Notes under the pieces: model-generated
The model's input: only the letters and a program-made list of their open reading frames with translations
What the model was told of the DNA's origin: nothing
The model's database searches: none
Shown here: positions 7,007 through 55,310 of the stretch, piece by piece
Numbering within the stretch: position 1 is the stretch's first letter
How the letters are laid out: each line of letters starts with the position of its first letter
Assembly: GCA_001898835.1 (NCBI GenBank)
Contig: MKVM01000001.1
Span: 1,358,466 to 1,422,465, forward strand
Length of the DNA: 64,000 nucleotides
Reading direction: 5' to 3'
From: Micrococcales bacterium 72-143
GTDB lineage: Bacteria; Actinomycetota; Actinomycetes; Actinomycetales; Microbacteriaceae
Translations under genes and position numbers: made by a program

Positions 7007-7071
7007 GCGGGTGAGGAGTCACTTCGTGTCGCCGCCGCGCCGGCGCAGGCGACACGACCTGACGCCTCAGT

Positions 7072-22709: not shown

Positions 22710-22741
22710 GGGCCCCGCGGTCCCGAGCGCACCGACGCGCG

Positions 22742-29023: not shown

Positions 29024-29042
29024 GCCTTCACCCGCTGAGTGG

Positions 29043-29756
29043 TCAGCGATCGCTGTCCCGAGGGGGCGCGGATGCGGGGGCCGGGGTGCGGAAGAGGCGC
29101 CCCATCCAGAGCCACACGACGATGCCCGTCGCGACGGTCACGATGGCCGCCCCGATCGTCGTGAGGGCGATGCCGAGGGCCGCGTTGCCGAGCACCTGGG
29201 CGACGGTGCGCGCCGTGCCGAAGATGAGACCCGTGAGAGCGCCGACCGTGGCCGTCAGGATGGCCGAGATGACGAGGCCGACGGTCACGCCGAAGCCCGT
29301 CACGTAGCCGGGGCGGTCGACCCGGTGCGCGCGCAGCACGAAGTAGCTCACGAGGCATCCGGCCACCACGAACACGGCCCCCACGATCGCGAAGCCGAGG
29401 GTCACGCCGCCGAGCGCGGCGGGGTCGATCTGCCCGAGCGTCGCGTTGGCGTCCTTCGCGGCGCCGCTGCCGCTCACGATGTTCGCCACCACCACGACGA
29501 GGGTGCGGATGACGGTGCTCAGATACCAGACCGCGAGCGGCACGGCGAGCAGGATGACGCCGAGCGTGACGAGCGGCAGCGCGAGGGCGCCCGCGATGAC
29601 CGTGCCGCGGCGCGCCTTCTTCTGGGCGGCGGCGGGCTCGACCTCGGGCGTCTTCTTCGCGGGCTCGGCCGTCGCCGTATCCGGCTTCTTCGCGGATGCC
29701 GGCGGTGCGGCGGGCGCGGTGGTCTCGACGGGCGGGGGCGTGGTGGGGTCGCTCAC
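29043..29756 (-). CDS. Membrane protein with Pro/Ala/Lys-rich N-terminus
   Basis: A 237-residue protein: a disordered N-terminal 50 residues rich in Pro, Ala, Lys and Thr, ending in basic QKKARRG, then five or so membrane helices. Helix 2 lies before an Ala/Asp loop. No recognised domain. It is convergent with the RamB-like gene (19 bp between stops) and divergent from the DHFR-like gene. Function unknown. Confidence 0.62.
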   Translation of the reverse strand: MSDPTTPPPVETTAPAAPPASAKKPDTATAEPAKKTPEVEPAAAQKKARRGTVIAGALALPLVTLGVILLAVPLAVWYLSTVIRTLVVVVANIVSGSGAAKDANATLGQIDPAALGGVTLGFAIVGAVFVVAGCLVSYFVLRAHRVDRPGYVTGFGVTVGLVISAILTATVGALTGLIFGTARTVAQVLGNAALGIALTTIGAAIVTVATGIVVWLWMGRLFRTPAPASAPPRDSDR

Positions 29757-29798: not shown

Positions 29799-30440
29799 AT
29801 GGCTGTGCGTGTCGACCTCAACATCTCGCTCGACGGATTCGCGACGACGACGGACCAGACGCCCGAGAACCCCTTCGGCGACGACTGGGGCCGGCTGACG
29901 GCGGCGTACGTCGGCACCCGCACCTTCCGCGAGCGCGTGCTGCACGACACGAGCGGGGCGGGCACGACGGGCGTCGACGACCGCTACGCCGCCGCCTACT
30001 TCGCGGGGGTCACCGCCGAGATCATGGGTGCCGGGATGTTCGGGCTGCACGACCACGCGGGCGACCCCGACTGGCGCGGCTGGTGGGGCGACGAGCCGCC
30101 GTTCCACTGCCCCGTGTTCGTGCTGACGCACACCCCGCGCGCGTCCATCGAGTTCGCGAACGGCACCGTGTTCCACTTCCTCCAGGCGACTCCGGACGAC
30201 GCGCTCGCGCGGGCCACGGCGGCCGCCGCGGGCGGCGACGTGCGCATCGGCGGCGGGCCCACCACCATCCGCCCGTTCCTTCGGGCCGGGCTCGTCGACC
30301 GCCTGCACGTGGGGATCGCGCCCCTCCTGCTCGGGGACGGCATCCGCCTCTGGGACGAGCTGCGCGGGCTCGAGGACGGGTACCGCGTCACGAGCGAGAC
30401 CGCCGAGAGCGGCACGATCCACCTGACCTTCGCCCGCTGA
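29799..30440 (+). CDS. Dihydrofolate-reductase-fold protein (RibD-C-like)
   Basis: A 213-residue oxidoreductase-like protein of the DHFR/RibD C-terminal family. The N-terminal VDLNISLDGF, the central CPVFVLTHTPR and the nucleotide-binding GGGPTTIRPFLRAGLVDRLH are characteristic. These stand-alone proteins probably reduce an unknown heterocycle with NADPH. The ATG has a -10 box TACTCT 6 nt upstream and no ribosome binding site. An inverted repeat follows 30 bp after its stop. Confidence 0.8.
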   Translation: MAVRVDLNISLDGFATTTDQTPENPFGDDWGRLTAAYVGTRTFRERVLHDTSGAGTTGVDDRYAAAYFAGVTAEIMGAGMFGLHDHAGDPDWRGWWGDEPPFHCPVFVLTHTPRASIEFANGTVFHFLQATPDDALARATAAAAGGDVRIGGGPTTIRPFLRAGLVDRLHVGIAPLLLGDGIRLWDELRGLEDGYRVTSETAESGTIHLTFAR

Positions 30441-30470
30441 CGGGTGCGGGACTGTCCAGCCCTCGCCCGC

Positions 30471-30528
30471 GAGTAGTCGTATTCCTGGCCGAGAACCGCG
30501 GTCTACGGCCCGAAATACGACTACTCGA
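30471..30528. repeat. Extragenic palindrome, copy 1
   Basis: Perfect 14-bp arms CGAGTAGTCGTATT (30471-30484) and its complement (30515-30528) enclose 30 nt that contain a second stem, GGCCG (30488-30492) with CGGCC (30507-30511). The flanks are also roughly complementary (ccctcgcccg against acgggggagg). It lies between convergent genes and is matched in size and layout by the element at 37756-37818. Confidence 0.75.
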
Positions 30529-30537
30529 CGGGGGAGG

Positions 30538-31017
30538 CTAGGGCTGCACCCAGGGCGAGGGCGCCGGGGGCGCCACCACGGAGGGCCGGTCGTCGCACGT
30601 GATCGTGTTGGGCAGCTCCCAGCTCGCCATCCACGGCCCCGTCGTGCCGCCGCCGTCGTTGCCCCCGAGATCCGTCACCGAGAACTCGCTGCCCGTGGCG
30701 GGGAAGTTGAAGCTGCCGCAGTTGTTGATGCCGACGGCCCCGACGTTCCGGGCGTCCACGTTCTCGAAGCTCGCCGAGCCCGTCGCGCGTGCGCTGAGCA
30801 CCGAGGTGCCCGTGCCGTCGACGCGGATGTCGCTGAAACGGACGCCGATGATCGTGTAGAGGTCCTTCACCGGCCAGTCCGACACGAGCATGATCGCGTT
30901 GTAGGTGCTGTCGAGGAGGTGGTCGCCGCGCACCCGGATGTCGGCGTCGATCGAGCGGTCGCGCGCCGCAAGATCCGTCATCCGCCCGGCGAGAACACAC
31001 ACCCTCGCGGACGGCAT
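30538..31017 (-). pseudogene. C-terminal remnant of a secreted beta-helix protein (GH87/mycodextranase-like)
   Basis: An open frame of 159 codons whose residues from about 20 on read like the last rungs of a right-handed parallel beta-helix (IRVRGDHLLDSTYNAIML, ASFENVDARNVGAVGINNCG) followed by a Pro-rich end. I associate this with the C-terminus of mycodextranase-type secreted hydrolases, which are several hundred residues longer. There is no signal peptide, and the start of a real gene lies just 50 bp upstream on the other strand, so the 5' part is missing. Best read as a truncated, probably dead gene. Confidence 0.55.
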
Positions 31018-31067
31018 CCCCCGGATGGGCGCTCCCGCGCGTCGGGGGCGCTTGCTAGCGTGACCGC

Positions 31068-31805
31068 ATGCCGGCGTACCCCCGCAGCGACGCGCATCTG
31101 ATCTGCGATGCGCTCGTTCCGCTGCCCGCCGGCAGCGGGGCCGCCGCCGTCACCTCTAGTCTCCTCGACCTCTTCACGAGCGGCTCGGTCGCGCCCGGCA
31201 CGCGCCTCCCGCCGGAGCGCCGACTCGCCGAGGTGCTCGCCGTCAGCCGGTCCGCCGTGCGCGAGGCGCTCGCCACCCTCGACACGCTCGGCGTCGTCGA
31301 GGCGCGACCCGGCGCCGGCACCTACCTGCGGGCCCAGCGCAGCGCGGTGCTGCCCGAGAGCATCCGCTGGAGCATGCTCGTCGGCGAACGCGACCTCGAC
31401 GAGCTCGTCGAGCTGCGCAGCGCCCTCGAGATCCACGCCGCCTGGCTGGCGGCCGAGAGCGCGGCCGGTCCCACGGCCGCGCGCCTCGCACCGCAGCTGG
31501 CCCGCGCGGCGGCCAGCCTCGACGACCTCGGCGCCTTCCTGGAGGCCGACCGCGAGTTCCACCGCGAGCTCGCGCGGGCGTGCGGCAACACGACCCTGCA
31601 GGACCTGCTCGACATCACGCACGGGCTCGTCGGCTCGCTCGTGGGTGCCAGCGCCGACGCGCGCCACCACGCCGCGATCGCCCTCGCGGAGCACCGCGAG
31701 GTGCACGCCGCCATCGCCGCGGGCGACCCGGAGGCCGCATCCGCCGCCATGCGCTCGCACATGCGCACCTCGGCGGCGCTGCTGCGCGGCGGGGCGGCCG
31801 CGTGA
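31068..31805 (+). CDS. GntR/FadR-family regulator
   Basis: Regulator of 245 residues with a winged helix (RLPPERRLAEVLAVSRSAVREAL, split around residues 44-66) and a helical FCD domain ending in HREVHAAIAAGDPEAA. Its stop overlaps the start of a PfkB-type kinase by 4 bp (GTGA), so it probably responds to the kinase substrate or product. A -10 box TAGCGT (31056-31061) lies 6 nt before the ATG. Confidence 0.85.
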   Translation: MPAYPRSDAHLICDALVPLPAGSGAAAVTSSLLDLFTSGSVAPGTRLPPERRLAEVLAVSRSAVREALATLDTLGVVEARPGAGTYLRAQRSAVLPESIRWSMLVGERDLDELVELRSALEIHAAWLAAESAAGPTAARLAPQLARAAASLDDLGAFLEADREFHRELARACGNTTLQDLLDITHGLVGSLVGASADARHHAAIALAEHREVHAAIAAGDPEAASAAMRSHMRTSAALLRGGAAA

Positions 31806-32641
31806 GCCGCATCCTCGTCGTCGGTCCCGTCTCGTGGAACCGGATGGTGGTGCTCGACGAGCTCCCCGCCCCCGTGCCGCACATGGAGTTCGCCCGCGAC
31901 TGGTTCGACGCGCTCGGGGGCACCTCGGCCGGCAAGTCCCTCCACCTGCACGCGCTCGGGCGCGATGTCGTGCTCGACGCCCTCGCCGGGCCGGACGAGG
32001 CGGGCGACCGCATCCGCGCGACACTCGAGCGGGCGGGTGTCCCCGCCCGGCTGCATCGCGCCGCCCGCAGCGAGCAGCACCTCAACCTCATGACGCCGGC
32101 CGGCGCCCGACTCTCGCTGTACCTCGCGACGCCCGACGAGCCCGAGGCCGCCGCGACCGCGGCATCCGTGCTCGACGGCGCCGCGCTCGCGGTGCTCGAC
32201 CTGGCGCCGCGCTGCGTCGGGCTCCTCTCCGCGGCGCGGGCGGCCGGCATCCCGGTGTGGACCGACCTGCACGACTACGACGGCGTGAGCGAGTTCCACC
32301 GCCCCTTCCTCGAGGCGGCGGAGGTCGTGTTCATGAACGCGGACCGCACCGACGACCCGTGGGCGCTGCTGACGCGTTGCGTCGCCGCAGGCCCCCGCGT
32401 CGCCGTCTGCACGCTCGGCGCCGAGGGTGCGATCGCGCTCGACGCCGAGGGAGGGCGGTGGTCGGTGCCCGCGGAGCCCGCCCGGGTGGTCGACACGAAC
32501 GGCGCCGGCGACGCGTTCTTCGCCGGCTTCCTCGACGCGCACCTCGCCGGCGCGGGTGTCGGCGAGAGCCTCACGCGGGGCGCACGCCAGGCGGTCGACG
32601 CGCTCGCGAGCCGCGGGCTGCATCCGGCGCTCGACGCCTGA
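31802..32641 (+). CDS. PfkB-family carbohydrate kinase
   Basis: Sugar or nucleoside kinase of 279 residues. The ribokinase-type C-terminal motif DTNGAGDAFFAGF carries the catalytic Asp and anion hole, and the N-terminal GGTSAGKSLHLHALG takes the place of the usual GGxxxN motif. Substrate unknown. The GTG is coupled to the GntR regulator upstream. A decayed glycan-hydrolase-like gene lies on the other side of the regulator, so the pair may once have served a sugar catabolic locus; that is inference. Confidence 0.82.
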   Translation: MSRILVVGPVSWNRMVVLDELPAPVPHMEFARDWFDALGGTSAGKSLHLHALGRDVVLDALAGPDEAGDRIRATLERAGVPARLHRAARSEQHLNLMTPAGARLSLYLATPDEPEAAATAASVLDGAALAVLDLAPRCVGLLSAARAAGIPVWTDLHDYDGVSEFHRPFLEAAEVVFMNADRTDDPWALLTRCVAAGPRVAVCTLGAEGAIALDAEGGRWSVPAEPARVVDTNGAGDAFFAGFLDAHLAGAGVGESLTRGARQAVDALASRGLHPALDA

Positions 32642-32737
32642 GCCCGGCGGCCACCCGTGGTTCTCCCAGGCGGCTCCCACCCGCTTTGGTACCCTGGGGT
32701 GCGCGCCGACCCCCGTTCGGGCGACGCCGGAACGCCT

Positions 32738-33451
32738 ATGACGCAGCTCCCCCCGCTCTATCGCACGCTCCGCGAGAGGTTCGACGCCTCCCGTGCCGAT
32801 CGGCGCACCCGGGGGACGCTCGTCGCCGGCTCGCTCGTCGCGACCTTCGGCCTGATGGCCTCCTTCGCGCTCGCGCCACCGGCCCCGCCGAGCGAGGCCG
32901 CCGCCCTCGCCGCCTACGCCTCCGACCACGCCCAGGAGGTCGACGTGTCGAGCTACGCGGCGGTGCAGCACCTCGAGGCCACCGGCGCCGTCACCCGCGA
33001 CGAGTACGACGCGACGAGCGGCGAGGAGACCTTCATCGCGGGCGGCACCAACTACGACTGGGCGAAGCTCGTGCTGCTCTACGCGGGCTTCCCGGTGAGC
33101 GACACCAACGTGACCGTGATCACCCGGTGGATGCGCCAGGAGAACTACATCGACAGCTGGTGGCTGCGCAACAACCCGCTCAACAACGGATGGGGCGCGA
33201 GCTACGGTCCCGGCGGCACCGGATCGAACTCCGACCTCGTGGCCGCGGCCCACAACGCGGCGGGCGCGCTGCTCAGCCGTGGCGGCTACGCGGGCATCGT
33301 GGCGGCGTTCCAGGACGGCACCTCGAGCGAAGCGGTCGAGTCGGCGATCTGGGCCTCGAACTGGGCCTCCGGCCACTACGCGAACGGCTCGCACTGGCAC
33401 TACACGCCCGTACCGGTCGTGAAGGCGCCCGCCTCCGCCTGGGGGCGGTAG
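32738..33451 (+). CDS. Secreted lysozyme-like-fold protein, unknown
   Basis: A 237-residue protein with one hydrophobic signal segment (about 28-50) after a basic N-terminus. The exported part includes VITRWMRQENY and NNPLNNGWGASYG, a pattern seen in phage-tail and wall-associated lysozyme-like domains in which a Glu is catalytic; the GluAsn here could fill that role, but this is inference. The ATG at 32738 gives a normal signal region. A wall-active role is likely but unproven. The 96-bp upstream gap shows no riboswitch. Confidence 0.6.
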   Translation: MTQLPPLYRTLRERFDASRADRRTRGTLVAGSLVATFGLMASFALAPPAPPSEAAALAAYASDHAQEVDVSSYAAVQHLEATGAVTRDEYDATSGEETFIAGGTNYDWAKLVLLYAGFPVSDTNVTVITRWMRQENYIDSWWLRNNPLNNGWGASYGPGGTGSNSDLVAAAHNAAGALLSRGGYAGIVAAFQDGTSSEAVESAIWASNWASGHYANGSHWHYTPVPVVKAPASAWGR

Positions 33452-33454
33452 GCC

Positions 33455-34438
33455 TCAGCCGAGCGCCTTCTCCACCGCGGCGAGGTTGGCGGCCATCCAG
33501 CTCAGGTAGTCGTCGCCGTCGGGCAGCAGCTCGGTGAACGAGACGACGGGCGTACCGGCGTCCTTCGCGGCGGCGAGCACCTCCTCGGTCTGCGGGCCGA
33601 CGGTCTGCGCGTTGTAGGCGAGGAAGGCGACCGAGCCGTTGCTCACGAGAGTCACGACGTCCCGCAGCACGAGGGCGGGCGCATCCGTCCCCTCCTCCAC
33701 GGCCTCGCTGAACTCGGCGGGCGTCGCGTTCTCGAGTCCGGCCGCCTCGAGCAGGTAGAGCGGCACGGGCTCGGTGATCGCGAAGCGCTCGCCCCCGTGC
33801 GCCGCGGCGATCCCGGATGCCGTGGTGGTCAGGCCGTCGAGCCCCTCCGCGAAGGCCTTCGCGTTCGCGGTGAAGGTGGCCGCGGCCCCCGGGTCGAGAG
33901 TGCCGAGCCGCTCGGCGATCGCGTCCGCGAGCTTCGCCATGGCGTCGAAGCTGTACCAGACGTGCTCGTTGAACTCGCCGTGGTCGTGGTCGTGGTCGTG
34001 CTCGCCCTCGTCGGCGTGATCGTCGCCGTCCTCGGACTCCGCCTCGTCGTGGTCCTCGGGCTCGAGGCCCGAGAGCTCGACCGCGTCGAGCACGACCGCG
34101 TCGCCGCCGTGGGCGTCGAGGAGCTTCTGCATGAAGTCGTCGTAGCCGCCGCCGTTGACGATCACGAGGTCGGCGTCGGCGAGGGCGAGCGCGTCGCGCG
34201 AGGTCGCCTCGTACTCGTGGGGGTCCTGGGTGCTGTCGTGGATGATCGAGGTCACCTCGGCCGCGTCGCCGGCGATGGTGTGGGCGATGTCGCCGTAGAC
34301 GTTCGTCGAGGCGACGATGCGGATCGCGGTGTCGCCGGCCCCCCCGTCCGACGGCGTCCCGGTTGCGCAGCCGGCGAGGGCGACGGCGGACGCCGCGAGC
34401 AGGGTGACGGGCAGGGCGATGCGGGCGCGGAAGGTCAT
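33455..34438 (-). CDS. Zinc ABC transporter substrate-binding lipoprotein (ZnuA/AztC-like)
   Basis: Cluster 9 metal-binding lipoprotein of 327 residues. Lipobox LAGC (Cys about 23), metal-ligand stretches STQDPHEYEAT and NEHVWYSFDAM, and an acidic His-rich loop (HADEGEHDHDHDHGE) that marks zinc binding. The ATG at 34438 gives a proper signal peptide and has a TACGGT -10 box 6 nt upstream. A Zur-type palindrome overlaps its promoter. No ABC permease or ATPase is adjacent, so it depends on one elsewhere. It is divergent from the YcgR-like permease. Confidence 0.88.
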   Translation of the reverse strand: MTFRARIALPVTLLAASAVALAGCATGTPSDGGAGDTAIRIVASTNVYGDIAHTIAGDAAEVTSIIHDSTQDPHEYEATSRDALALADADLVIVNGGGYDDFMQKLLDAHGGDAVVLDAVELSGLEPEDHDEAESEDGDDHADEGEHDHDHDHGEFNEHVWYSFDAMAKLADAIAERLGTLDPGAAATFTANAKAFAEGLDGLTTTASGIAAAHGGERFAITEPVPLYLLEAAGLENATPAEFSEAVEEGTDAPALVLRDVVTLVSNGSVAFLAYNAQTVGPQTEEVLAAAKDAGTPVVSFTELLPDGDDYLSWMAANLAAVEKALG

Positions 34439-34444
34439 GGAGCG

Positions 34445-34474
34445 ACCGTAACTCTTATTGATAATGATTGTCAA
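34445..34474 (-). promoter_or_regulatory. Zur box and promoter of the zinc-binding lipoprotein
   Basis: On the plus strand TTGATAAT-G-ATTGTCAA (34458-34474) is a 17-bp palindrome with one mismatch, fitting the Zur consensus TGANAATNATTNTCA. On the minus strand TTGACA (34469-34474), an 18-bp spacer and TACGGT (34445-34450) form a promoter 6 nt before the lipoprotein ATG, so bound Zur would cover the -35 and spacer. Confidence 0.8.
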
Positions 34475-34534
34475 AACGGATAACACCCCCGAGTCTCAGG
34501 TGAGCCCTCGGCCGCGCTCGCATACCCTGACCCG

Positions 34535-35542
34535 GTGGAGACCCGAGCCGCCGCGCGCACGAGCCCCGTGCGGTGGGGCGCCGCCGCACTCGGCGTGCTC
34601 GCCGCCCTCCTCGGCCTCCGCGTCGCGACCGGCTCGCTCCCCGTCGACGCGCTGCCGAACGCCGTGCGTGACCTCATCACGCTCTCCGTGAGCGTGCTCG
34701 TCGAGTCGCTGCCCTTCGTCTTCCTCGGCGTGCTGCTGTCGGTGCTCGTGCAGGTATGGGTGCCGAGCTCGGTCTTCGACCGGCTGCTGCCGCGCATCCC
34801 CGTGCTGCGCCGGGCCGTCATGTCGCTGCTCGGCGTGCTGCTGCCGGTGTGCGAGTGCGGCAACGTGCCCCTCGCGCGGGGCCTCCTCATCCGCGGCCTC
34901 ACCGTGCCCGAGACGATGACCTTCCTGCTCGCCGCACCCATCCTCAACCCGGTCACCATCACCACGACGTACCAGGCCTTCGGCTGGGACCACGGCATCC
35001 TCGTGGGCCGCATCGCGGGCGGATTCGTCATCGCGAACCTCGTCGGGTGGCTGTTCAGCCGCCACCCCCGCCCCACCGAGCTGCTCACGCCCAGCTTCGA
35101 GGCGAGCTGCCGCGCCCACCGCGACCACCCGGTCGCCGGACACCGGATGCGGCGCAGCGCTCTCGGGTTCGCCGAGGAGTCGACGGCGATGCTGCCGGCC
35201 CTCGTGGTCGGCTCGTTCATCGCCGGCGCCATCCAGGTGGGGGTTCCGCGCGAGGTGCTCGTGGCGCTCGGCTCCAACCCGGTCTGGTCGGTGCTCGCGC
35301 TCATGGTGCTCGCGTTCGTGATCGCGATCTGCTCCAACGTCGACGCCTTCTTCATCCTCTCGTTCGGCTCGACGTTCATGCCCGGCGCGATCGTCGCCTT
35401 CCTCGTGTTCGGCGCGATGATCGACGTCAAGATGCTGGCGCTCATGCGCACGACCTTCACGACGGCGACGCTCGCGCGGATGACGGCGGTCGTGGCGCTC
35501 GCGGCCCTCGTGCTCGGATTCGGGGTGAACGTCCTTGCGTGA
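34535..35542 (+). CDS. YcgR/UPF0718-type permease
   Basis: Membrane protein of 335 residues with about eight helices in two related halves. The conserved loop PVCECGNVPLARG in the first half, and its counterpart ICSNVDAFF in the second, mark the UPF0718 (YraQ/YcgR) family. B. subtilis YcgR is a Zur-regulated partner of YcgQ. The GTG start lies 6 nt after a TACCCT -10 box, and the Zur-type palindrome 61 bp upstream may also act on it. It overlaps the next gene by 8 bp. Confidence 0.83.
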   Translation: METRAAARTSPVRWGAAALGVLAALLGLRVATGSLPVDALPNAVRDLITLSVSVLVESLPFVFLGVLLSVLVQVWVPSSVFDRLLPRIPVLRRAVMSLLGVLLPVCECGNVPLARGLLIRGLTVPETMTFLLAAPILNPVTITTTYQAFGWDHGILVGRIAGGFVIANLVGWLFSRHPRPTELLTPSFEASCRAHRDHPVAGHRMRRSALGFAEESTAMLPALVVGSFIAGAIQVGVPREVLVALGSNPVWSVLALMVLAFVIAICSNVDAFFILSFGSTFMPGAIVAFLVFGAMIDVKMLALMRTTFTTATLARMTAVVALAALVLGFGVNVLA

Positions 35543-36293
35543 GCGCTTCCTCTCCCACGGCCGCGGGCTGCTGCTCGTCCTCGTCGGCGTCGCCGCGATC
35601 CTGTGGCTCGCCGTCGCGGGCAAGCTCGCGCTCTACATCCACCCGCGGTACATCGAGTTCACCGTCGTCATGGCCGTGATCGCGGGCGTCGTGGCGATCG
35701 TCGCCGCCGCACTGCTGCCGCGCGCCGACGAGCACGAGGGCGACCACGAGCACGCGCCGCGATCCCGGCGCCGTGCGACGCTGCTGACCGCCGCGTCGGT
35801 CGCCCTCATCGTGGCGACGACGGCCGTGCTGCTCGTCATGCCGCCGTCGACGCTCACGAGCGGAACGGCCGCGCAGCGCGACATCAACGCGAGCGCGGGC
35901 GGCGGTGCGGGCGACGCCCCCGTGCTGGTCGCGGGCGACGGCAGCGGCTTCACGGTGAAGGACTGGGCCGGCCTGCTGCGGCAGGGCGCCGACGAGCAGT
36001 ACCTGGCCGACGCGCGTCCCGACGTCACGGGCTTCGTGATGGCCGACCCCGACGACCCCGACGACGTCTTCTACGTCGCCCGGTTCGTCATCACCTGCTG
36101 CGCCGTCGACGCGCAGCCCGTGGGCGTGCCCGTCTACTCCCCCGGCTGGCGCGACGCCCACCCCGTCGACAGCTGGGTGCAGGTGACGGGACGCTTCGTC
36201 GCGAACCCCTCGACGTCGAGCATGCAGGCCGTCGCCCTCGAGCCGGCCGACGTGACCTCCATCGACGAGCCGGCGGATCCCTATGTCTACTGA
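35535..36293 (+). CDS. YcgQ/TIGR03943-family protein
   Basis: Two N-terminal membrane helices, a His-rich cytoplasmic stretch (DEHEGDHEHAPR), a third helix, then an exported domain with ITCCAVDAQPVGVPVY, whose double cysteine is typical of TIGR03943/YcgQ, 252 residues in all. It works with the preceding permease in zinc-limited cells by analogy with B. subtilis; transport direction and cargo are not established. It starts at TTG, overlapping the permease by 8 bp. The next gene overlaps its end by 11 bp. Confidence 0.83.
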   Translation: MRERFLSHGRGLLLVLVGVAAILWLAVAGKLALYIHPRYIEFTVVMAVIAGVVAIVAAALLPRADEHEGDHEHAPRSRRRATLLTAASVALIVATTAVLLVMPPSTLTSGTAAQRDINASAGGGAGDAPVLVAGDGSGFTVKDWAGLLRQGADEQYLADARPDVTGFVMADPDDPDDVFYVARFVITCCAVDAQPVGVPVYSPGWRDAHPVDSWVQVTGRFVANPSTSSMQAVALEPADVTSIDEPADPYVY

Positions 36294-37716
36294 GCCGGGA
36301 CGGGAGGAGCGGATGCCGGGGAGCCCGGCCGAGGTGCGCGCCGCCCTGCGCGACACGGCGGCACGGCGCCGGTTCCGGCGCAGCTGGGTCGCGGTCGTCG
36401 CCGTGCTCGCGGTCGCCGCCGCGGGCCTCGGCGCGGCGAGCGTCGCCCAGGGGCCGAAGCTCAGCTCCGCGACCGTGAACGCCTCGGCCGCCATCGAGCG
36501 CCCCGGCCAGCGCCTCGTGCTGCAGGCGGACCAGCCGCTCGCGGCAGTGCCGGCCTCCGCGGTGTCGGTCGAGCCCGCCGCGCCGCTCGAGCTGACCGCC
36601 GACGGGGCGCAGCTCACGGTGCGCTTCACCGGCATCCTGCGCTACGCGACCGAGTACCGCGTCGAGATCCCGGTCGCGAGCGCCGCGACGGGTGCGGGCG
36701 CGGTGCTGCGCTACAACTTCACGACGCCCGACGTGAGCACCGCATCCCTCGAACGCGACCCGGGCGGCGCGGACCGCGTCGTGCGCCACTCGCTGGCCGG
36801 CACGGCGCCGGATGCGGTGCTCGCCGAGGCGCCGCGGATCCAGCAGTACGCGCTCCTCGGCGGTGACGCCGTTGCGCTCATCACGCTCGACGAGGCGGGG
36901 GTCCCGTCGCTCGCGATCGCCGCCGACGGCACGAGCGCGGTCGTGCCGACCCCCGCGGCGCGCGCCATCCGCACGCTGCACGCTGCGTCCGGCGGCGACC
37001 TGCTCGGCTACGTGCTCGACGCGGACGGCACGACCGGCACGGGCACCCTGTACCTGCTCGACCTCACCGACTCCTCGTGGACGCCGATCGAGGTACGCGG
37101 TCCCGGCGGCACCCCGCTCGCCGCCCTCGACTGGACCTTCGTGCCGGGCACGACCTCCGTGATCGTGCAGTCGGACGACCTGCAGCTCTACCTCGTCGAC
37201 CCCGTCGCGGGCACCGAGGCGGCCCCGCTCGGGCAGCACGCCGAGCTGCGCGGCTTCCTGCCGGGCACGCTGCAGCTCGTCGTCGCCGACCCCTCCAGCG
37301 GCGGCCTCGTGAACCTCGCCGACGGCACGACGACCGCGCTCGAGCTGCCGCAGGCCGACGCCCCCGTCGAGCTGTACCCGGCCGCGTTCGTGCTCACAAG
37401 CCCCACGAGCTACGTGCAGCTCTACCTCGACCCGATGGGCTACGCGGATGCCGGAGCCCGCGCGATCCTGTACGCGGTCGACGCATCCGGGACCCGGGAG
37501 CTTTACCGTCCGGCGACCGCCACGAGCCGCATCGGGGCGGTCTGCCTCTCCCCCAACGGGCAGTACCTCGCGCTCGAGGAGATCCCCGGGAGCGCCGAGC
37601 CCGACGACTACCCGAGCGAGCCGGGCTGGTCGGGTACCACGATCTACTACCTCGACACGGTCACGGGCGAGACCACGCGCGGCGTCACCGGGATGGCGCC
37701 CGACTGGTGCTCGTAG
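36283..37716 (+). CDS. Membrane-anchored beta-propeller-like protein
   Basis: A 477-residue protein: cytoplasmic basic N-terminus, one transmembrane helix (about 35-56), an Ig-like segment (about 65-150), then repeated four-stranded blades with Gly-Thr and Leu-Tyr-Leu patterns that look like a beta-propeller (about 165-470). No enzyme motif. It is translationally coupled to the YcgQ-like gene by an 11-bp overlap, so it probably belongs to the zinc unit. I do not recognise a described zinc protein of this form. Confidence 0.68.
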   Translation: MSTEPGREERMPGSPAEVRAALRDTAARRRFRRSWVAVVAVLAVAAAGLGAASVAQGPKLSSATVNASAAIERPGQRLVLQADQPLAAVPASAVSVEPAAPLELTADGAQLTVRFTGILRYATEYRVEIPVASAATGAGAVLRYNFTTPDVSTASLERDPGGADRVVRHSLAGTAPDAVLAEAPRIQQYALLGGDAVALITLDEAGVPSLAIAADGTSAVVPTPAARAIRTLHAASGGDLLGYVLDADGTTGTGTLYLLDLTDSSWTPIEVRGPGGTPLAALDWTFVPGTTSVIVQSDDLQLYLVDPVAGTEAAPLGQHAELRGFLPGTLQLVVADPSSGGLVNLADGTTTALELPQADAPVELYPAAFVLTSPTSYVQLYLDPMGYADAGARAILYAVDASGTRELYRPATATSRIGAVCLSPNGQYLALEEIPGSAEPDDYPSEPGWSGTTIYYLDTVTGETTRGVTGMAPDWCS

Positions 37717-37755
37717 CGGGGCTTCCTCTGCCCTCGGGTTCGCCGAGCCTCCGAT

Positions 37756-37818
37756 CGCTGAGTGGTCGGTTCCTGGCCTCATCTCCCGGTTTTCGGGCTG
37801 GGAACCGACCACTCAGCG
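37756..37818. repeat. Extragenic palindrome, copy 2
   Basis: Perfect 18-bp arms CGCTGAGTGGTCGGTTCC (37756-37773) and its complement (37801-37818) enclose 27 nt with a second stem, CCCG (37785-37788) and CGGG (37794-37797). It lies between convergent genes. Arms align with copy 1 (GAGTGGTCGGTT against GAGTAGTCGTATT) and every difference is compensated in the opposite arm. Confidence 0.75.
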
Positions 37819-37842: not shown

Positions 37843-38502
37843 TCAGTAGCCGAACTGGCTCATGATCCAGGTGAGCAGCTCGTGCTGCTCCCGCGCGCAG
37901 GTATCCGTGTCGGGGATCGGCATCCCCAGGAAGTCGAAGCTCACGGGCGCCGTCGTCGGGCTGGAGTGCTCCTTGCCCGGCGTGCTGTCGACCTCGATGG
38001 AGACGTCGAACGACGGCACGACCACATGCGTGCCCTGCGGATCGCTCGGCAGCGAGTAGGTGCCGATTCCGGTGAAAAGGATGTACGGGTCGCCGCGCAT
38101 CGCGTCGACGTCCACGTCGACGTCGCTCTGGAAGTTGACGGTCACGTAGGTGCCGTCGGTGCCGTACGCCCAGCCGTCGGTGTTGCCGTCGAACCCGCAC
38201 AGGAAGCCCATGACGTCGTGCCCGTCGGCCGTGCCGGTGATGAAGTAGTCGTCGTTGTCGAGGTCGTCGGCGAGCCACGGCAGGTTCTTGTAGCGCGCCT
38301 TCCAGCCGTCGAGGCTCGTCGGGTAGTCGTAGGGGAACGGGTCGCCCCCACCCCCGTCACCGCCGTCATCGCCCGTTCCCCCGCCCCCGTCGCCGCCGTT
38401 CAGGGTCGTGGTCGTGGGCGACGGCGCGGGCGCGATGACGCATCCGCTCAACGCGAGCGCGGCCGCGAGGGCGGTCGCGACGATCGTCAGGGCTCGTCTC
38501 AT
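37843..38502 (-). CDS. Lipoprotein of unknown function
   Basis: A 219-residue protein with lipobox LSGC (Cys about 20), a Gly/Asp-rich low-complexity spacer, and a globular domain with paired Cys, many Asp and aromatic residues (GWKARYKNLPWLADDLDND). No family recognised. The ATG at 38502 follows AGAGG; a GTG at 38523 would overlap the preceding gene further. It begins just inside the stop region of the next lipoprotein gene on the same strand, so the two form an operon. Confidence 0.65.
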   Translation of the reverse strand: MRRALTIVATALAAALALSGCVIAPAPSPTTTTLNGGDGGGGTGDDGGDGGGGDPFPYDYPTSLDGWKARYKNLPWLADDLDNDDYFITGTADGHDVMGFLCGFDGNTDGWAYGTDGTYVTVNFQSDVDVDVDAMRGDPYILFTGIGTYSLPSDPQGTHVVVPSFDVSIEVDSTPGKEHSSPTTAPVSFDFLGMPIPDTDTCAREQHELLTWIMSQFGY

Positions 38503-48654: not shown

Positions 48655-48804
48655 CCTTCCGGACGGCGCCGCACCGGAGATCGGGCGCGACCACGCTCGT
48701 GCCCGATCTCTGCGCAGCGCGGCGGACCCCGCCCCTTCCGGGCGGCGCGCACCGGAGATCGGGTACGACCACGCTCGTGCCCGATCTCTGCGCAGCGCGG
48801 CGGA
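48655..48804. repeat. Tandem 71-72 bp repeat, each carrying a strong hairpin
   Basis: Copy A spans about 48655-48726, copy B about 48734-48804, differing at only a few positions. Each holds GAGATCGGGyrCGA, a CCACGC loop and TCGTGCCCGATCTC: 14-bp arms with one wobble pair. In A the wobble is G-T at the eleventh pair; in B it is T-G at the tenth. It lies between convergent genes (mscL and the small gene at 48822). Confidence 0.8.
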
Positions 48805-55246: not shown

Positions 55247-55256
55247 CGTGCGATTC

Positions 55257-55290
55257 AGTGTACACATGTTCACGTACTTAGGTGAACATG
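55257..55290. promoter_or_regulatory. TetR operator between divergent genes
   Basis: CATGTTCAC (55265-55273) and its exact complement GTGAACATG (55282-55290) are separated by 8 bp. The TetR -10 box TACACT (minus strand, 55257-55262) and a TTCACC -35 with an 18-bp spacer overlap the palindrome, and a plus-strand TACTTA (55275-55280) may serve the SDR gene. Confidence 0.7.
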
Positions 55291-55310
55291 CGTTCACAGA
55301 TGGAGGCCCC

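Follow-up and report, generated by a model that had tools for sequence, protein, structure and literature searches.

Two palindromes of the same plan and of different arms lie between convergent genes in a window of 64,000 nucleotides from Micrococcales bacterium 72-143 (contig MKVM01000001.1, positions 1,358,466 to 1,422,465), the whole stretch of DNA that was analysed. The question raised by this locus is what these elements are, and how each of them has come to be so perfectly self-complementary. A preliminary description of the window proposed that their arms had changed in pairs, through selection on structure or through a common mobile origin, as for the repetitive extragenic palindromic (REP) elements. 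The best reading of the palindromes is probably that of a selfish system laid out like REP elements and the REP-associated transposase (RAYT), which is served by an unrelated nuclease. Both palindromes are members of a family of scattered sites, two copies of which bracket a nuclease gene elsewhere in the genome, and many homologs of this nuclease are bracketed in the same manner by palindromes of other sequence.

A Family of Palindromes at Gene Ends

Element 1 (30470-30527, no strand assigned) is a solo palindrome of the type here called B, with GAGTAGTCGTATT arms and a 56-bp core at 30471-30526. Its 14-bp arms, CGAGTAGTCGTATT and AATACGACTACTCG, are perfect and enclose an interior of 30 nt. 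Element 2 (37756-37818, also without strand) is a solo palindrome of type A, with perfect 18-bp arms, CGCTGAGTGGTCGGTTCC and GGAACCGACCACTCAGCG, an interior of 27 nt and a 55-bp core at 37760-37814. The arms and interiors are those of the preliminary description, which located element 2 correctly and element 1 one base off. The string CCTGGCC that it placed just after the left arm is found in both elements, but in element 2 the CC lies inside the arm.

The description also suggested looking for further copies, and a genome-wide search has provided them. The pattern GAGTNGTCG N20-50 CGACNACTC occurs at 28 places in the 3.33-Mb genome and the reversed-pattern control at none, and a covariance model built from 27 of these places finds 46 sites at E<=1, each on both strands; all but one of the sites reach E<=0.021, and the two window palindromes are among the 46. 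The copies fall into type A, of 55 bp (GAGTGGTCGGTT..AACCGACCACTC), and type B, of 56 bp (GAGTAGTCGTAT..ATACGACTACTC). The unit length is thus 55-56 bp here, and it is 54-56 bp in relatives; the ends are GAGT/ACTC, and the outer flanks are C-rich before the unit and G-rich after it, with pairing above that of shuffles only at positions -1 and -2 and, less so, at -10.

In a comparison set of nine genomes of the genus (G000, the genome studied here, to G008), covariance matches at E<=0.1 are found in eight. With both strands counted, they number 89 in G000, 75 in G007, 49 in G002, 12 in G004, 9 in G006, 5 each in G005 and G003, one weak match in G008 and none in G001. A stricter pattern retrieved 13 stretches from a collection of genome contigs: seven from Acaricomes phytoseiuli (Micrococcaceae), whose copies have an identical outer arm and a different interior, two from Protaetiibacter mangrovi, and one each from Homoserinibacter gongjuensis, a Microbacteriaceae metagenome-assembled genome, Brevibacterium aurantiacum and Frigoribacterium faeni. 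Among 398 Microbacteriaceae genomes, 23 have a pattern match, some of them chance by eye.

The gene calls are those of a small codon-usage finder whose training set was the window, so that gene starts are approximate. By these calls, the 46 sites comprise 24 between convergent genes, 17 between co-directional and 3 between divergent ones, and 2 that overlap a called gene, the last two classes depending on the window-trained finder. The distribution of the 44 sites gives p about 1e-7 against the intergenic bases of the window (chi-square). A gene 3' end is found within 60 nt of 41 sites, at 10-50 nt in 26; in 11 sites the copy overlaps the gene end by a few bases, and the arm provides the stop codon. 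Apart from such few bases, 44 of the 46 sites are outside called genes, which bears out the earlier view of an extragenic family enriched between convergent genes. This 46-site family of scattered repeats is real, as are its kept length and its position at gene ends. Locally, copies can be crowded: five (one of type B and four of type A) lie in 7.4 kb at G000:C3:509000-522000 (L042), and four in the G007 stretch L233.

A Nuclease Gene between Two Copies

The preliminary description looked to a RAYT as a possible partner of the palindromes. This candidate was rejected, as the search for PF01797 gave no match in the genome and was positive in 5 of 14 control genomes. The partner that had been missed is a Vsr-like nuclease gene (G000:C5:869003-869935), which lies outside the window between two type B palindromes, the whole palindrome-nuclease-palindrome unit measuring ~1.1 kb (G000:C5:868867-870003). 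Two palindromes ~1,080 bp apart surround one gene in five of the nine genus genomes (G000, G002, G003, G005 and G007). In G004, the contig end falls inside the nuclease gene, after one palindrome, and in G005 the bracketed gene (G005:C1:705261-706207) is broken, with one TGA and two overlapping matches, while both palindromes remain. G001 and G008, with zero and one weak palindrome matches, have best homologs that are merely 36-38% identical.

The bracketed proteins have 313-330 residues and match PF18741 weakly (E 2e-4 to 6e-3). PF18741 is found in 15 of 19 aligned homologs (best 1.5e-8), DUF559 (PF04480) in six and AbiEi_1 in two, and a PADLOC AbiEi model matches 13 of the 19 (best E 5e-11). 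Residues E205 and D239 are invariant in the aligned homologs, and the motif EYEGDHH occurs in many members. Because of these matches and of the two invariant residues, the bracketed protein is predicted to consist of an AbiEi-like N-terminus and a Vsr/DUF559/MTES_1575-like nuclease C-terminus. With the homolog L120 as query, four plasmid records and no phage records were found, two annotated plasmid homologs being named 'DUF559 domain-containing' or 'hypothetical'.

Matched Palindromes around Nuclease Homologs

A profile of the nuclease finds homologs in 123 of 160 Microbacteriaceae genomes (E<=1e-8) and in 113 of 148 genomes of the class (E<=1e-12). Their palindromes were scored over fixed spans of 54-55 bp (28 pairs for the distant genus loci), so that the span and not the palindrome sets the length considered. 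Seven of the 24 loci of distant homologs in the genus have matching palindromes at both ends, of other sequences such as GAGGGG(A/T)CGCAAA, GAGGTGTCAGTTT, AGAGTACGCACTTCTGCG and CTACCGAAACCGGCGACCGC (at least 20 of 28 pairs, by eye), and several have one palindrome only, or none. At 69 Microbacteriaceae loci, L165 being left out for its contig edge, palindromes with 19 or more of 27 pairs occupy 67 of 138 flanks; shuffles give 4 of 414, and the ends of neighbouring genes 10 of 160.

The two palindromes of a locus also resemble each other. Where both flanks reach at least 17 pairs (40 loci), the outer arms agree at 12-13 of 13 positions in 26 loci, against 5 of 1560 non-cognate pairs. The 29 loci from outside the family have arms that coincide at 11 or more positions in 19 cases, the comparison value being 15 of 812; among these cases are a Tsukamurella plasmid and, of three Arthrobacter plasmid loci, two. 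When the loci are pooled, a matched palindrome pair is found at 66 of 120 (17 of 24 in the genus, 32 of 66 in the family and 17 of 30 outside it), whereas among 392 control genes, from the window and 400 kb of G007, only two are bracketed, namely the nuclease itself and a gene between two solo copies. The 120 include most of the 69 loci and all 29 from outside the family. They do not include L117 and L122, which are fragments of a broken gene, the partial matches L135-L137 and L142, the duplicates L143-L145 of earlier loci, or L165, L243 and L254. The last two, which are Microbacteriaceae entries in the class search, were excluded also from the count of 29, together with duplicated rows. L101 of Acaricomes was counted as failed, and by eye it is flanked by GAGCGGTCAG and GAGTGGTCGG palindromes.

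The nuclease is therefore bracketed, and the same layout, with other palindromes, surrounds many of its homologs. G007 harbors a second dispersed family, with the arm AAGTACGTRCTTTTGGGC, which has seven solo copies in the stretches examined (L222, L224, L230, L233, L238, L240 and L241) and which also brackets the nuclease homolog L129. Over 132 palindromes of bracketed loci, which had been picked for pairing, the paired fraction is 0.83-0.95 at positions 1-8, 0.72-0.91 at positions 9-19 and 0.33-0.39 at the innermost positions 23-26; the plan is that of two arms of ~21 bp around an unconserved centre of ~12 bp. Direct repeats of at least six bases surround 6 of the 66 units, against ~2% of non-cognate pairs, a mild excess.

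Replacement of Palindrome Types at Fixed Sites

Homologs that are at least 60% identical share arms (at least 13 of 18) in 10 of 12 pairs, and those below 50% identity in 76 of 2126, so that the palindrome type tracks the nuclease over short distances and turns over fast. The nuclease of G000 is 67-72% identical to those of G003 and G005, which have TCGTAT/TCGCAT palindromes, and 58-59% identical to those of G002 and G007, which have TCGGTT.

Sites were compared between genomes, an orthologous site being defined by one neighbouring gene of at least 55% identity, not always by both, and an empty site by the lack of such an element within 300 nt. The type B sites of G000 correspond in G007 to nine of type A, two of which are the palindromes at the nuclease itself, four empty and none of type B; one G007 match of this comparison (C5:485465) is doubtful. 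Elsewhere, they correspond to five of type A in G002, one of type A in G004, three of type B in G003, two of type B and one unclear in G005, one of type B and two unclear in G006, two empty in G001 and one unclear in G008. The type A sites of G000 correspond to nine of type A and five empty in G007, four of type A in G002, one of type A in G004 and one empty in G005. Since type A stands at every occupied type B site in G007 (nine of nine) and G002 (five of five), whole palindromes were replaced. At C3:445909 and C5:873496 the whole palindrome differs from that of G007, including its outer flank. Type B is also the less decayed of the two, with the outer 12 pairs perfect in 14 of 18 copies, against 11 of 28 copies of type A.

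Block replacement at fixed sites fits an overwriting of older palindromes by the type of the present nuclease. The changes in pairs that had been attributed to selection on structure can be accounted for by this overwriting: two discrete types and the replacement of whole palindromes are found, not point compensation.

Gain and loss of copies are apparent as well. The element at C3:365335 is present in G000, and none is found between the same genes in G007. As a separate observation, a GGTGACGTTAACATGTGAACGTCACC palindrome, unrelated to the family, is located upstream of the element site in both genomes (G000:C3:365 kb, L011; L230). The bracketed unit stands behind a PspC-domain operon in G000, G002, G005 and G007; by eye, G003 has another palindrome at this place and G008 a solo palindrome of the GAGGGG family, and G001 and G006 have none. 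The G003 unit adjoins a gene beside which G000 and G007 have a solo copy, the orthology being seen on one side only. In G000, the neighbours of the nuclease gene encode a PspC-domain protein, a small protein without significant family and a FAD-binding protein, and no AbiEii toxin is found among these three.

A Probable Selfish Unit and Its Alternatives

We infer a selfish unit whose nuclease binds and cuts its own palindrome, which is then copied by way of repair. The two window palindromes would be solo copies of the end or target sequence of this small unit, which consists of palindrome, nuclease gene and palindrome (~1.1 kb). Binding of the palindrome, with its two arms and their centre, is probably the task of the AbiEi-like N-terminal part in a nuclease dimer, and the Vsr-like PD-(D/E)XK part would cut or nick it. 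With other copies as template for repair of the break, the palindrome would multiply and the current type would be written over older ones, and once the specificity of the nuclease changed, or the nuclease was replaced, the old copies (type A here) would decay. Copies would survive mainly just behind stop codons, the site of least harm, where they may then act as transcript ends.

Several observations weigh against this selfish system. G006 carries type B copies, and its best homologs are merely 36-38% identical to the bracketed nuclease. The cognate protein matches PF18741 below cut-off only, its PDB profile matches are insignificant (3r3p, 'mobile intron protein', E 0.39), and a single-sequence AlphaFold2 model of an Acaricomes homolog is unusable (mean pLDDT, the predicted confidence per residue, of 37). 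No matched pair is found, by the criteria used, at 54 of the 120 homolog loci, and there is no clear target-site duplication at the 66 bracketed ones. In the stretches examined, no solo copies were found for the homologs L127, L135 and L141 of G000 and L142 of G007. Over all pairs, protein and arm similarity correlate with a Spearman coefficient of 0.175 only, a value reached by 2 of 2000 permutations.

An unlikely alternative is that the palindromes are bidirectional transcript ends, that is, hairpin terminators or 3' stabilisers kept by selection on RNA structure, and that the nuclease merely lies between two of them. The position within 60 nt of a gene 3' end (41 of 46 sites), the predominance of convergent over divergent placement (24 and 3 of the 46 sites; p about 1e-7 relative to intergenic bases of the window) and the great stability of the hairpins would agree with it; the four strands of elements 1 and 2 have folding energies far lower than those of dinucleotide shuffles (z -5.9 to -9.6). 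Such transcript ends do not explain why arm sequence and length are conserved, nor why one gene family is bracketed at 66 of 120 loci, against 2 of 392. In addition, no T-run follows the stem in the sequences of the copies, and pairing is lost towards the centre (0.33-0.39 at positions 23-26). When the 17 co-directional copies are read on the strand of the transcript, 15 mismatches are G-U and 20 are A-C, so that G-U has no excess and there is no sign of RNA-level pairing. A covariation score of 0.284, against 0.162 for shuffled alignments (27 copies), was not accepted as proof of RNA structure, because the pattern that picked the copies fixes much of the two outer arms, and part of the signal comes from the difference between types A and B. 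A terminator scan, which allows loops of 3-8 only, listed neither element.

It is also rather improbable that the palindrome is an operator, an autoregulatory site for the AbiEi-like domain with the solo copies as its regulon or as stray sites. AbiEi antitoxins control the operon that encodes them and have inverted repeats as their binding sites, according to passages of PMC7319586, and an AbiEi model of PADLOC matches 13 of the 19 homologs; an operator, however, accounts poorly for the second copy behind the nuclease gene and for a divergent placement in only 3 of 46 copies. There is very little likelihood that the copies are plain miniature inverted-repeat transposable elements (MITEs), derived from an ordinary transposon that ends in these palindromes and carries the nuclease as a passenger. 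A dispersed short inverted repeat, present at some orthologous sites and absent at others, with a mild excess of short direct repeats around the units, would suit such an origin, but only one other gene among 392 is bracketed, and that between two solo copies, and nuclease homologs with other palindromes are bracketed in the same way. Neutral copying errors have an equally slight chance. Paired changes in palindromes are known to arise by template switching, and quasipalindromes could by this route have acquired matching arms with no active partner now, as one likely deletion scar in the window might suggest; dispersal, kept length, bracketing and the replacement of whole types with their outer flank would still be unexplained.

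A broader form of the selfish system is possible, although held with somewhat less than even confidence: a new class of mobile DNA across Actinomycetes, made of autonomous palindrome-nuclease-palindrome units that home palindromes into palindromes. Each new nuclease specificity would overwrite the older palindromes of the genome at the same gene-end sites, and solo palindromes would be both target and product, as in REP/RAYT, by a route of break repair instead of single-strand transposition and with an enzyme unrelated to RAYT.

The Palindromes in Their Window

Both elements lie between convergent genes by the window-trained finder, as had been described. Element 1 is flanked by a forward-strand gene at 29805-30440, whose stop codon is 29 nt before the palindrome, and a reverse-strand gene at 30538-30981. 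Element 2 lies between a forward-strand gene at 36313-37716 and a reverse-strand gene at 37843-38502. In G007, the ortholog of the gene left of element 1 has a different gene to its right and no element 1 behind it. Element 2 is missing next to the left-gene orthologs of G001, G003, G005 and G008, which have other right neighbours, and G007 has no ortholog of the gene left of element 2. Among the 23 window palindromes listed (~54 bp, at least 18 of 27 pairs), the outer pairs are complete in 12 of 13 and 13 of 13 for elements 1 and 2, against 6-11 in the other 21. A scan of the window with Rfam at gathering score gave no family at the palindromes, a tRNA being the sole match.

A likely deletion scar of a third copy is located at 29033-29048 (no strand), where CGCTGAGTGG is followed by TCAGCG, like joined type A outer ends; G007 holds a full element between the orthologs of the genes that flank it (L066 1501-1555, by eye). 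The 32-bp gap at 22710-22741 (no strand) has no element, and the orthologous gaps in G007 and G004 (L072, L085) hold type A. Other palindromes of the window were noted in passing. That at 7012-7069, between convergent genes (TGAGGAGTCACTTCGTGTCGCC..., 20 of 27 pairs), has an arm which by eye is like the GAGGTGTCACTT palindromes near the nuclease homologs L119 and L121, which may make it a decayed member of a second family. A palindrome of ~34 nt, GAGATCGGG(C/T)..CCCGATCTC, is present twice at 48677-48801, with at least one copy between convergent genes, and that at 55251-55304, TGTACACATGTTCACGTA..TAGGTGAACATGCGTTCACA, lies between divergent genes and has an operator-like appearance.

Comparison with Known Systems

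REP-type palindromes are common bacterial repeats and, to our knowledge, RAYT is the dedicated enzyme known for them. A widespread actinobacterial nuclease family would here gain a probable role. For many of its members the bracketing palindrome is a ready-made candidate recognition site, on which binding and cutting by many of these proteins can be tested directly, and the family could give a set of long-site endonucleases with natural targets. The selfish system would also account for a class of gene-end palindromes otherwise labelled terminators.

The likeness to REP elements that the preliminary description had seen holds for short extragenic palindromes in many copies, and fails for the RAYT. 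As described in parts of PMC3733652, PMC3116915 and PMC8266576, REP and REPIN sequences with RAYT (TnpA-REP; 'REPtrons') are short palindromes outside genes that recur tens of times or more, and passages of PMC3733652 describe the gene of a dedicated enzyme with these repeats on either side of it, and one REP class apparently without dedicated transposase. Here, the enzyme is a Vsr-like nuclease and not an HUH Y1 transposase, no Y1_Tnp is found in the genome, the ends are GAGT/ACTC with no GTAG (or CGTC) foot, and the palindrome measures 54-56 bp instead of 20-40 bp. Membership in REP/RAYT fails because of the missing Y1 transposase, the missing GTAG foot and the longer unit.

The EDxHD (Vsr-fold) homing endonucleases, of which I-Bth0305I is an example, possibly share the nuclease fold (PDB 3r3p, at the insignificant E of 0.39), may have counterparts here in the conserved E and D and the EYEGDHH of many members, and spread by breaks, as the working model would have it for the present unit. 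Unlike them, this nuclease has an AbiEi-like N-terminal part, and its gene lies between two intact palindromes, with no intron or intein seen. The AbiEi antitoxins of the type IV toxin-antitoxin system AbiE have in common with it the N-terminal similarity and, by the account in part of PMC7319586, the binding of inverted repeats; they differ in that the C-terminus here is a nuclease and that no AbiEii is among the three neighbours at the G000 locus.

A search of the open-access literature in PubMed Central found no report of palindromes bracketing such nucleases. The nuclease domain itself is that of the MTES_1575/DUF559 Vsr-like restriction endonucleases (PF18741 in 15 of 19 homologs, PF04480 in 6 of 19). 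The MTES_1575 domain is named as a Vsr restriction endonuclease in PMC3710099, whose passages on it describe a part of a very large HEPN protein and mention no palindromes. A DUF559 Vsr-like nuclease of Caulobacter is the subject of sections of PMC12907096, in the main text of which the word stem 'palindrom' has no occurrence. The domain is thus already known, and it is the association of palindrome and nuclease that has the look of a selfish repeat system of a kind not recognised before.

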